This document shows, piece by piece, positions 10,382 through 14,085 of a stretch of 64,000 bases of DNA. A program made the translations under genes and the position numbers. The notes below the pieces were generated by a model that was not told the origin of the DNA, did not search any database, and saw nothing but the letters and a program-made list of their open reading frames with translations. Each line of letters opens with the position of its first letter. Position 1 is the first letter of the stretch. Source of the DNA: Salinisphaera sp. LB1. GTDB taxonomy: Bacteria > Pseudomonadota > Gammaproteobacteria > Nevskiales > Salinisphaeraceae. The stretch is from positions 372,001-436,000 of the forward strand of contig NZ_CP029488.1 in assembly GCF_003177035.1 (NCBI RefSeq). Direction: 5' to 3'.

Positions 10382-11386
10382 TCAGGCCGAGGCCGGCAGG
10401 CGCGGCTTGAGTGCGCCGTCGGCTGCGAGCCCGCGAGCGGCGTAATAGTCTGCGCCGTCGGTTCCGTCGTAGCGGCGTTCGTTGAGAAAGCGACGAATCA
10501 CCCCGGCCGATTCGTTGGCTCGCATCAGCAGAAACAGATGCCCGCCGCCACGGACGACGTGCAGATACGATTTGGGTATCAGCCAATACAGGATGCGGCT
10601 GTTGACCAGCGGCACGATCGGATCGTCGTCGCCGCCCATGATGAGCGTCGGACAGTGCAGGCGATGCAGGCGATGCGCACTGGTCCAGCCCAGCGAGGCA
10701 ATCAACTGGTTGATGTAGCCGCGTGTACTCGGCCCGCTGGCATAGCGACCGCGACGGCTGATCAGTTCCGGCCGCCGGCGCACCAGTCCGCCGTAGAGGC
10801 CCGCCACCGCGACCGGCGGCGTTTCCGCGCGCTCGTAGCGTCGCGCCGCCGCCAGACGCTTGAGCGTACTCGAGCGCGTGGCGAGACTCGGCCAGCCGAT
10901 GGCGCTGGACGCTAGCACGAGCCGATTGACCTCGGCGGGATGATCCAGCGCGAACTGCTGGGCGAGCGAGCCGCCCCAGGACAGGCCAACGACATCCAGC
11001 GGCTCGTCGTAGCCGAGACGCAGTAGAAAGGTCGAGATCAGATCGGCGTACCAGCCCATCCGTCGCGGCACGGCCAGGGCCGGCGAACGCCCCGCCCCCG
11101 GCATCTCGGGCACGATGATCTCGGCGTCATCCAGCGCGTTGACCAGCGGCAACAGCATATCGAGATTCGCGCCCATGGCGTTCAGGACCAGCATGGGCCG
11201 GCCACGGCCGCGACGAATGCCGTAGCGCAGGCGCACGCCGTCCACATCAATCCAGTCAACCTGGATCCGGGTGCGGCGTCGCAATACACTGTGTTCGGGC
11301 GGCAGCCGCCGGATAGCACGCAGCGAGTGAATTTTTTTTCCTGACGGATCGGACATCAGCCTCATGCGACTCGTATCGCCGCCCAT
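10382..11386 (-). CDS. phaZ: Intracellular poly(3-hydroxyalkanoate) depolymerase, PhaZ-like
   Basis: An alpha/beta hydrolase of about 334 residues. The medium-chain PHA depolymerase pattern is visible: VDWIDVDGVRLRYGIRRG, LVLNAMGANLDMLLPLV, the nucleophile elbow GLSWGG (Ser136 from this start), GGDDDPIVPL (acid) and GGGHLFLLM (catalytic His). It would release hydroxyalkanoate from storage granules. The ATG at 11386 is one of three nearby candidates; a TTG at 11449 would extend it. A run of eight A residues (about 11331-11338) lies in the N-terminal coding region. It is the third gene of the phaC cluster. Confidence 0.82.
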   Translation of the reverse strand: MGGDTSRMRLMSDPSGKKIHSLRAIRRLPPEHSVLRRRTRIQVDWIDVDGVRLRYGIRRGRGRPMLVLNAMGANLDMLLPLVNALDDAEIIVPEMPGAGRSPALAVPRRMGWYADLISTFLLRLGYDEPLDVVGLSWGGSLAQQFALDHPAEVNRLVLASSAIGWPSLATRSSTLKRLAAARRYERAETPPVAVAGLYGGLVRRRPELISRRGRYASGPSTRGYINQLIASLGWTSAHRLHRLHCPTLIMGGDDDPIVPLVNSRILYWLIPKSYLHVVRGGGHLFLLMRANESAGVIRRFLNERRYDGTDGADYYAARGLAADGALKPRLPASA

Positions 11387-11466: not shown

Positions 11467-12306
11467 TCAGATCGCTTCACCGCCCGGCTGCGCCGGATGC
11501 GGCGTATCCAGGAATTCCTCGATCCGCCGGGCAGCTTCGTCCGGGCGTTCCAGCACCAGCCAGTGCCCAGCGCCTCGCATGATCGAAAGCCGCGAATCCG
11601 GGATCAGCAGGCCGAGCAGGCGGACATTGGGCAGCGGCACGACCTGATCATCGTCGCCCGCAAGGATGAACGTCGGCATGCGCAACCGATGCAACCAGGG
11701 CAGGCTCGAGAAGCCCGCCATGGCATAGAGCTGGGCCGCGAATGCCCGTCGCGTGGGCGGGCAGGCCCGGCGCACGGCCGCGGCCACCGCCGCGCATTCG
11801 TCGGCACGCCGGCCGCCGAACAGTGTACGCACATCGCGCCCATCGGCCACGGCCCGCCCCGGGCCGCCGGGCCAGGCCAGACGCCACAGGCTGGCCGCTC
11901 GGCCGGGCAGCATGAGCGGACCAATCGAAGTCGCCACCAGCACCAGGCGCCGGACCCGCGCGCCATGATCCCGCGCCAGACGCTGCGCCAGCAGGCCACC
12001 CCAGCCTATGCCGAGCACGTCGACGACATCGTGTTCCAGCACATCGCACAAGCGCGCCGCCCGAGCGGCCAGACCGGCCATGCGCGCCATTCGCGGCGTG
12101 CCCGGCGTGCCGCCGATACCCGGCGCGTCGAAGCAGATGGTGGAGCGCGACAGCGCATCGCAGAATGACTGGACAACGCGATGATCGGCAAGAAAATCGT
12201 TGCAGATCAGAAGCGGCGGCCCGCGCCCGGCGGTACGGGCGACGACCATCGCGTCGCCGCCGATATGAAAAGTATCGATGCGACATGTGTCAGCGTTGGC
12301 GCACAT
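11467..12306 (-). CDS. PhaZ-like alpha/beta hydrolase lacking the nucleophile serine
   Basis: A 279-residue paralogue of the neighbouring PhaZ. It keeps the scaffold: LLICNDFLADHRVVQSF in place of the oxyanion strand, GDDDQVVPLPNVRLLG and GAGHWLVLERP. But the elbow reads GIGWGG, with Gly101 (GGC) where the active-site Ser of GLSWGG should be. A serine hydrolase reaction is therefore not expected unless another residue substitutes. Its ATG lies 17 bases inside the end of phaC, and its stop is 80 bases before the phaZ ATG, so it is embedded in the operon. It may be a regulatory or granule-associated pseudoenzyme, or a decaying duplicate; the frame is intact. Confidence 0.8.
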   Translation of the reverse strand: MCANADTCRIDTFHIGGDAMVVARTAGRGPPLLICNDFLADHRVVQSFCDALSRSTICFDAPGIGGTPGTPRMARMAGLAARAARLCDVLEHDVVDVLGIGWGGLLAQRLARDHGARVRRLVLVATSIGPLMLPGRAASLWRLAWPGGPGRAVADGRDVRTLFGGRRADECAAVAAAVRRACPPTRRAFAAQLYAMAGFSSLPWLHRLRMPTFILAGDDDQVVPLPNVRLLGLLIPDSRLSIMRGAGHWLVLERPDEAARRIEEFLDTPHPAQPGGEAI

Positions 12307-14005
12307 AACGGCCGGGCGCACTCTCGATGGGCTCGAAGTCGTCATTGCCGAAAACCTCCGGAGCGGGCACGGTCGGCCCGCCGTGCGCACGACACCAGTC
12401 GATCCAGTCGGGCCACCAGGACGTCCCGGCGGCGCGCGCGCCGCGGCGCCACTCGGCCGGCCCGAGTTCGTGATTGTCGTTGACCCAGAAGCCCCGAGCC
12501 GCATGCGCTCTTTTCGGGCCCGGCGGCGATACGATGGCCTGGGCATGGCCACCGGCGCCGAGCACGAACCGGCGGCGGCCGCGGAACATCTGCATCGAGC
12601 GGTAGCAGGCCTGCCAGGGGGCGATATGGTCGGCGGCGCCGCCCAGCACGAACACATCCTGCTCGATGGCCGAGAAATCGATCCGCTGATCGCCGAGCCG
12701 CAGCCCGCCGGTGGTGCGCAGCTGATCGTCGCGATAGATGCCGAGCAGATCGGCGTGCAGACGCGCGGGCAGACGCGTGGTGTCGCTGTTCCAGTACAGG
12801 ATGTCGGACGCCGGCGGTGTCTCGCCGAGCACGTAGTTATGGGTGACGAAGCGCCATACCAATGCATCCGGCCGTTGCCAGGCAAAGGCGCGCGCCAGGG
12901 CCGCGCCCTCGACGACGCCGTCGCCGCTCGCACGCGACAACGCGCGCGCCAGGGTCTCGTCTTGGCCCGCGGGCACATCGGCCAGACTGTGCGGCGATTC
13001 GAGCAGGGTCACGAACAGCGACAGGCAGGCGATCCGCTCGCCGTCTCCCGCGGCCGCCAAGCGTGCCGCCGCGGCCGCGGCCGTCAGCCCGCCGGCACAG
13101 GCCCCGGCCAGCTTGACCGGATGCCGGCCGGTTACCCGCCAGACGATTTCAACGGCCTGCTCCGTGGCCTCGACGTAATCGGCCAGCCCCCAGCGGCGCT
13201 GTGCCGCCGTCGGGTTGCGCCACGAGACCGCGAAAACCTGCTGCCCGCTGACCAGCGCGTGGCGTGCCAGGCTGTTCTCCGGGCTCAGATCCAGCACGTA
13301 GTATTTGTTGATCTGTGGCCCGACCAGCAGGATCGCCGATGCGTCGACCTGTTCCGTATGGGGCGTGTACTGGATCAACTCGCAGATCGCGTCACGATAG
13401 ATCACGGCGCCCGGCGTGGCTGCGATGTCGACGCCCAGGGTGAAGGCCTCCGGATCGACCTGGCGCGGCAGCCCGCGGTTGTCGCGCAGATCGCGCAGCA
13501 ACTGATACATCCCGGTCACCGCCGAGCGGCCTCGCGTGGCAAGCAGGTTGTCGTAAAACCCCGGATGGGTCAGAAACAGATTGGCCGGCGACAGGGCGGC
13601 GATCAGGTGCTCGACCGCGAACGACAGCTGCCGGCGGCGGATGTCCGGCAACCCGGCCACGCCCACCACCTCGCGCAAAGCCTGTGCAAGCACCAGATAA
13701 AGACGGGCCACGCGGCCGAATACGGGACTGGCCCGCCAGGCCGGATGAGCAAAGCGCGGGTCATCCGCCGTGGGGCGCGGGCCGCCGCGCCCCAGCAGAG
13801 CAAGGGTCAATCGCATGCCAAACCGCGCTTCGATACGCAGGGCCGCGGCCGGGTGGCGGGCCAGCACGCGCAGCAGTTCGGCCGCCGCAGCGCCGATATC
13901 CGGCCACTGGGCGTCCACCGTTGCCAAAGCGCCCGGCCCTTCGCCGACGCTGGGCCGGCCGTCCACGCGCTCGACCGGATCCGATACCTCGGCTGGGTGG
14001 TTCAC
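12290..14005 (-). CDS. phaC: Class II-like poly(3-hydroxyalkanoate) synthase
   Basis: A 571-residue PHA polymerase. PANLFLTHPGF, then QYTPHTEQV and ILLVGPQINKYYVLDLSP, mark the family. The lipase-like box is GACAGGLT with catalytic Cys303, as in Pseudomonas class II enzymes; Asp459 (GGAADHIAPW) and His487 (AGGHAQAIV) complete the triad. It joins 3-hydroxyacyl-CoA units into storage polyester on granules. The GTG start at 14005 is chosen because a strong AACAGGAGG lies five bases upstream; the frame stays open further back but would overlap the intergenic operator. It leads a three-gene cluster with the two PhaZ-type genes. Chain-length class is inferred from the motif. Confidence 0.92.
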   Translation of the reverse strand: MNHPAEVSDPVERVDGRPSVGEGPGALATVDAQWPDIGAAAAELLRVLARHPAAALRIEARFGMRLTLALLGRGGPRPTADDPRFAHPAWRASPVFGRVARLYLVLAQALREVVGVAGLPDIRRRQLSFAVEHLIAALSPANLFLTHPGFYDNLLATRGRSAVTGMYQLLRDLRDNRGLPRQVDPEAFTLGVDIAATPGAVIYRDAICELIQYTPHTEQVDASAILLVGPQINKYYVLDLSPENSLARHALVSGQQVFAVSWRNPTAAQRRWGLADYVEATEQAVEIVWRVTGRHPVKLAGACAGGLTAAAAAARLAAAGDGERIACLSLFVTLLESPHSLADVPAGQDETLARALSRASGDGVVEGAALARAFAWQRPDALVWRFVTHNYVLGETPPASDILYWNSDTTRLPARLHADLLGIYRDDQLRTTGGLRLGDQRIDFSAIEQDVFVLGGAADHIAPWQACYRSMQMFRGRRRFVLGAGGHAQAIVSPPGPKRAHAARGFWVNDNHELGPAEWRRGARAAGTSWWPDWIDWCRAHGGPTVPAPEVFGNDDFEPIESAPGRYVRQR

Positions 14006-14020
14006 GGCGCCTCCTGTTGT

Positions 14021-14042
14021 ATCGACGTCTGTCGACGTCGAT
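14021..14042. promoter_or_regulatory. Inverted repeat between divergent phaC and yihY
   Basis: ATCGACGTC (14021-14029) and GACGTCGAT (14034-14042) are a perfect nine-base inverted repeat with a TGTC spacer. It lies 16 bases upstream of the phaC GTG and 44 bases from the yihY ATG, where a repressor dimer could control one or both promoters. No phaD-like regulator gene is present in the window. Confidence 0.5.
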
Positions 14043-14085
14043 TGATGGTTACAATGGGCCCACGCGTTTTTCAAGCGAGTCGTAC

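Follow-up and report, generated by a model that had tools for sequence, protein, structure and literature searches.

A serine-less PhaZ paralogue fixed beside the PHA synthase gene of Salinisphaeraceae is probably a non-cutting helper of PHA synthesis

The gene lying between the PHA synthase gene phaC and the depolymerase homologue Z1 in Salinisphaera sp. LB1 encodes a second PhaZ paralogue, here called Z2, which has glycine in place of the nucleophilic serine and probably assists the synthase without cutting PHA, rather than being a broken copy of a depolymerase. Within the window, the whole 64,000-nucleotide stretch of DNA that was analysed, the Z2 open reading frame occupies positions 11467 to 12306 of the minus strand, exactly as the first-pass annotation had placed it, with its ATG at 12306 and its stop codon ending at 11467. 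It predicts an alpha/beta-hydrolase of 279 amino acids with a lid. The reading we favor, to which we give somewhat better than even chances, is that Z2 is a long-established pseudoenzyme, a non-hydrolytic partner that would bind the PHA chain and be made together with PhaC.

The nucleophile elbow of Z2 reads GIGWGG (11995-12012, minus strand) in the context VLGIGWGGLLA, with Gly101 encoded by GGC at 12006-12004, whereas active PhaZ proteins have GxSWGG; the difference from GLSWGG in the neighboring Z1, which had been pointed out earlier, is confirmed by the sequence. The other two residues of the triad are retained, the acid as Asp220 in the motif GDDD (11647-11649, minus strand) and the histidine as His248 in GAGHW (11563-11565, minus strand), and both are invariant in 14/14 orthologues. 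The first-pass annotation had held that the rest of the fold was kept, which is true of the fold itself, of Asp220 and of His248, but not of the oxyanion-hole loop, where N-D/E-F/Y-x has replaced N-G-I-G. In the window this loop is N36-D37-F38-L39 (12190-12201, minus strand). Active PhaZ of the outgroup have N in 20 of 21 sequences, G in 21, I in 18 and G again in 21, whereas among the 14 Z2 orthologues N is found in 10, D or E in 13 and F or Y in 13, and the last Gly is retained in three. The copy in Salinisphaeraceae CPC72, which is more distant than the other Z2 proteins, has the intermediate loop NEIG. A Trp follows the triad His in 13/14 Z2 proteins, in the place of the Leu of most active PhaZ.

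Membership of Z2 in the alpha/beta-hydrolase superfamily is supported by its Pfam match (Abhydrolase_1, PF00561, 1.3e-19) and by its fold. Its best NCBIfam match is TIGR02240, poly(3-hydroxyalkanoate) depolymerase (PhaZ, mcl type), but the score of 154 bits falls below the curated cut-off of 250.6 bits, and of the residues that characterize the family Z2 has the Asp and His but neither the nucleophilic Ser nor the N-G-I-G loop. In PhaZ of Pseudomonas putida KT2440 the triad is Ser102/Asp221/His248, and deletion of the oxyanion loop, or change of its Asn35, abolishes activity (PMC12504323). Z2 resembles that enzyme in its lidded fold, in the position of its gene next to phaC and in Asp220/His248, which match Asp221/His248, but differs from it in having Gly101 for Ser102, N-D/E-F for F-N-G-I-G, a Trp after the catalytic His and a score under the TIGR02240 cut-off. 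Judged by these residues, Z2 is very likely non-catalytic.

Conservation of the glycine was examined in a family sample of 17 Salinisphaeraceae genomes, which includes S. hydrothermalis C41B8, S. shabanensis E1L3A, S. japonica YTM-1, S. orenii MK-B5, S. halophila YIM 95161, GH4, Q1T1-3, UBA1666, SP48 and CPC72, and in which 14 genomes (13 Salinisphaera and CPC72) carry phaC. One contig, NZ_JAGHQU010000004.1, is labelled Endozoicomonas sp. G2_2 and was placed in Salinisphaera by the genome collection; the label is probably wrong. All 14 phaC-adjacent orthologues, 40-79% identical to the window protein, have Gly at position 101 in an elbow of the form G[IM]GWGG, and a Ser-bearing Z2, which the first-pass annotation had proposed as the mark of a recent mutation or sequencing error, was found in none of these close relatives. 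The Gly codon varies among GGC, GGG and GGA, and the nearest relative (79% identical) has GGG where the window has GGC; because synonymous codons differ among the orthologues, it is the residue itself, not just the codon, that has been maintained. Outside the family the position is Ser in 18/18 comparable PhaZ elbows from a pattern scan of 85 genomes of the order, and in all of about 45 phaC-linked PhaZ from Actinomycetota, Bacteroidota and other Pseudomonadota. A class-wide scan for the elbow pattern indicated that PhaZ of this type is rare, finding it in one other genome, with Ser.

Pairwise dN/dS values (NG86) were 0.10-0.27 for Z2, 0.06-0.23 for phaC and 0.06-0.20 for Z1. Over a Z2 tree length of about 6 substitutions per site, G101, D220 and H248 never vary, and their site rates lie at the 19th, 8th and 4th percentiles, respectively. 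A catalytic residue has thus been lost throughout the lineage under purifying selection, as defines a pseudoenzyme, and the earlier suggestion of retained selection rather than decay, with Z2 tied to phaC, is strongly supported. The notion that Z2 is a decaying or mutated phaZ copy, or a sequencing error, draws on the missing catalytic residue and can for practical purposes be dismissed: error, recent mutation and decay are excluded by the same Gly, with varied codons, in 14 separate genomes, by open frames in all 14, by dN/dS well below 1 and by the conserved overlap of the Z2 start with phaC.

The phaC gene (12290-14074, minus strand) encodes a class II-like PHA synthase with the nucleophile Cys326 in GACAGG; it matches PhaC_N at 2.6e-48 and TIGR01839 at 495 bits, below that model's cut-off of 855. 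Its 3' end overlaps the start of Z2 by 17 bases (12290-12306, minus strand), the Z2 ATG arising within the phaC codons TAT-GTx (Tyr-Val). This overlap, already noted in the first-pass annotation, is of the same length in 13/13 Salinisphaera and is 4 bases long in CPC72. The Tyr codon involved is TAT in 13/13 Salinisphaera versus TAC in 7/7 relatives without the 17-base overlap; given that TAT makes up 42% of the remaining Tyr codons in these genes, the naive probability of this pattern, ignoring relatedness, is 1e-5. From the overlap we infer that translation of Z2 may be coupled to that of phaC.

phaC, Z2 and Z1 stand side by side in 14/17 Salinisphaeraceae genomes, including that of the window (4.14 Mb, a single contig), and the remaining three genomes, one of which is only 85% complete, are without all three genes. 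CPC72 has three phaC-like genes and a PF06850 PHB depolymerase, as against one phaC in Salinisphaera. That Z2 acts outside PHA metabolism, as an unrelated binding protein or receptor riding in the operon, is very unlikely, since its presence and absence match those of phaC in 17/17 genomes, it sits beside phaC as the ordinary phaZ does elsewhere in the order, and its start codon lies within phaC. Such a role would be in keeping with the lineage-specific conserved residues of Z2, and Ser-less alpha/beta-hydrolases are non-enzymatic elsewhere, as in the NDRG family (PMC7022630). NDRG2 and NDRG3 are like Z2 in being natural non-enzymatic alpha/beta-hydrolases kept for another role, but in NDRG3 all three triad residues are replaced and the pocket is blocked (PMC7022630), whereas in Z2 the replacements are confined to the nucleophile and a portion of the oxyanion loop. 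The residues invariant in Z2 alone (14/14) are R75, M76, L105, R136, H206, R207, R254, E257 and R260, a set compatible with a putative binding surface.

An AF2 model of Z2 (pLDDT 79.5, pTM 0.84) had its best structural matches among esterases and related hydrolases, with VIA-align Z scores of about 27-30 over about 250 residues. Among these matches, at Z 27.1, was the S102G mutant of the AHL lactonase AidH (PDB 4g8b), which has 0% activity and, in a 1.33 Å structure, substrate bound in its pocket (PMC3532132). The two proteins have Ser replaced by Gly at the same elbow, at nearly the same numbering, with His and acid kept; they differ in that the AidH substitution was engineered and concerns another substrate, whereas that of Z2 is natural and fixed. 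Retention of Asp220 and His248 would be unusual for a purely structural pseudoenzyme and would also be expected of an altered catalyst. Z2 might accordingly be imagined as an enzyme of changed chemistry, in which the His248-Asp220 pair activates water or a CoA thiol against the polymer ester (as a general base, with no acyl-enzyme) or in which Asp/Glu37 takes part. The two triad residues are among the slowest Z2 sites despite the lost Ser, the fold is retained including the lid region, and loop position 37, always Gly in active PhaZ outside the family, is acidic in 13/14 orthologues. We nevertheless consider this quite unlikely, because AidH S102G is inactive though its His-acid pair is intact (PMC3532132), because position 37 carries Asn in one orthologue and its site rate is unremarkable (45th percentile), and because no Ser or Cys is both specific to Z2 and invariant across the 14 orthologues, the lid residue C171 being present in 13/14.

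The second homologue, Z1 (10382-11386, minus strand, with a start at ATG 11386 or TTG 11449), is 38% identical to Z2 over 239 amino acids in the window. Its best family is also TIGR02240, at 204 bits, below the cut-off of 250.6. A C-terminal motif, NERRYDGTDxxDY (10445-10483, minus strand), is found in 14/14 Z1 proteins, Ser-less copies included; it reads NERRHDGTD in CPC72 and is absent from every other locus examined. A structure model of Z1 was too weak (pLDDT 65) and was set aside. Nine species have Ser as the Z1 nucleophile; GH4 and Q1T1-3 have Ala there, and UBA1666, SP48 and S. japonica have Gly. On the phaC and Z1 trees this distribution takes two state changes: either Ser was lost twice, or it was lost once and then regained. 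The nucleophile site lies at the 55th percentile of site rate in Z1, whose Asp and His are among its slowest sites, and the Ser-less copies of SP48 and S. japonica differ with a dN/dS of 0.085, indicating purifying selection. Other families of the order have a single phaZ linked to phaC, and in the tree Z2 clusters with these genes, whereas Z1 falls among PhaZ from other groups. On this placement Z2 would descend from the original phaZ and Z1 would be an added copy, although a common origin of the two was not rejected by an AU test (p 0.24).

The arrangement of the paralogues bears on whether Z2 could be a regulatory subunit of Z1, restraining the active depolymerase or supplying it with substrate, an arrangement seen in many pairs of enzyme and pseudoenzyme. 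The two genes are tandem, co-directional and always together, and Z1 looks active in nine species. In the other five, however, Z1 is itself Ser-less (Ala in two, Gly in three) and both paralogues are still under purifying selection; the maintenance of Z2 in these species indicates that its role is not merely the restraint of an active Z1. The conserved overlap, moreover, is with phaC, the gap to Z1 being 10-235 bases, save in four species (Q1T1-3, UBA1666, SP48 and S. japonica) with a 4-base Z1/Z2 overlap. We therefore regard a regulator of Z1 as an unlikely explanation, though one worth keeping in mind. All four overlapping species have a Ser-less Z1, and the fifth Ser-less species, GH4, has no overlap, a pattern that looks as if loss of Z1 catalysis accompanied tighter co-translation.

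The five species with Ser-less Z1 appear to be without any Ser-bearing PhaZ of this family. Searches of their genomes found no other strong match to TIGR02240, apart from a weak partial one in UBA1666 and another in SP48; for PF06850 depolymerases nothing exceeded the cut-off, the one match, in Q1T1-3, being sub-threshold. PF10503 gave two borderline matches in GH4, one sub-threshold match in UBA1666 and none in Q1T1-3, SP48 or S. japonica, and a search with NF050089 returned only generic hydrolases below the cut-off. Replacement by another depolymerase was rejected for these species on these searches; absences from UBA1666 (87% complete) and SP48 (81% complete) are weaker evidence. Phasins were also sought. 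The PhaF/PhaI type (PF05597) was not found in Salinisphaeraceae, but Phasin_2 is above its cut-off in all phaC-bearing genomes of the family, and Z2 is thus not obviously a stand-in for a missing phasin.

Returning to Z2 as a non-hydrolytic, chain-binding partner of PhaC, we propose that it descends from a PhaZ-type intracellular mcl-PHA depolymerase. Ser would have given way to Gly101 no later than the common ancestor of those Salinisphaeraceae that carry phaC, and the Gly-rich oxyanion loop was remodelled too. Z2 would have been kept since then and produced with PhaC through translational coupling. Its lidded pocket, with the His-Asp pair, may still accommodate the end of a PHA chain or an oligomer of hydroxyacyl units, and, unable to form an acyl-enzyme, the protein would bind polymer at the nascent granule as a subunit that does not hydrolyse it, supporting PhaC by chain handling, by granule attachment or by shielding chain ends from hydrolysis. 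A non-cutting, chain-binding subunit is proposed because AidH S102G binds its substrate without activity. The granule binder or regulator put forward in the first-pass annotation is likewise plausible; both the binding of Z2 to PHA and its physical partnership with PhaC are read from sequence and gene arrangement, and should be taken as putative.

Class III PhaC-PhaE and class IV PhaC-PhaR synthases have a non-catalytic protein encoded beside phaC and made with it, but PhaE and PhaR, unlike Z2, are not alpha/beta-hydrolases. We know of no established partner requirement for class II PhaC, the class that the Salinisphaera synthase resembles. More tentatively, and at less than even odds, the class II-like synthase of Salinisphaeraceae may work with non-catalytic partners derived from depolymerases, Z2 always and a Ser-less Z1 in some species, which would then make PHA without an active PhaZ of this family; such partners would be a third kind beside PhaE and PhaR, recycled from a degrading enzyme. 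Pseudoenzymes and PhaC partner proteins are already known. The open-access PMC papers searched gave no described precedent for a Ser-less PhaZ adjoining phaC, nor for a fixed one with its start inside the synthase gene, and nothing relevant on PHA or biochemistry in Salinisphaera. A mirror image of Z2 was seen in Pseudonocardia, where a phaC-like gene lies upstream of an intact phaZ at three loci (L109:2837-4885, L110:2431-4809 and L111:2948-4603) and the phaC-like proteins have LLG[LV]RTGG for G-x-C-x-G-G, Arg standing where the catalytic Cys would be; the phaC-like frame of L111 appears broken downstream.

The label "PHA depolymerase" probably misdescribes every Z2 of the family and, in five species, Z1 as well. 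Those five species, without a Ser-bearing PhaZ of this family, pose the question of how, or whether, PHA is mobilized in them. Avoidance of futile cycling is a recognized question in PHA turnover (PMC3918157), and if our reading of Z2 is true, these bacteria would have a new way of separating PHA synthesis from breakdown. Should Z2 be produced in step with PhaC and hold PHA without cleaving it, the protein would provide a natural means of gripping the PHA chain without degrading it.
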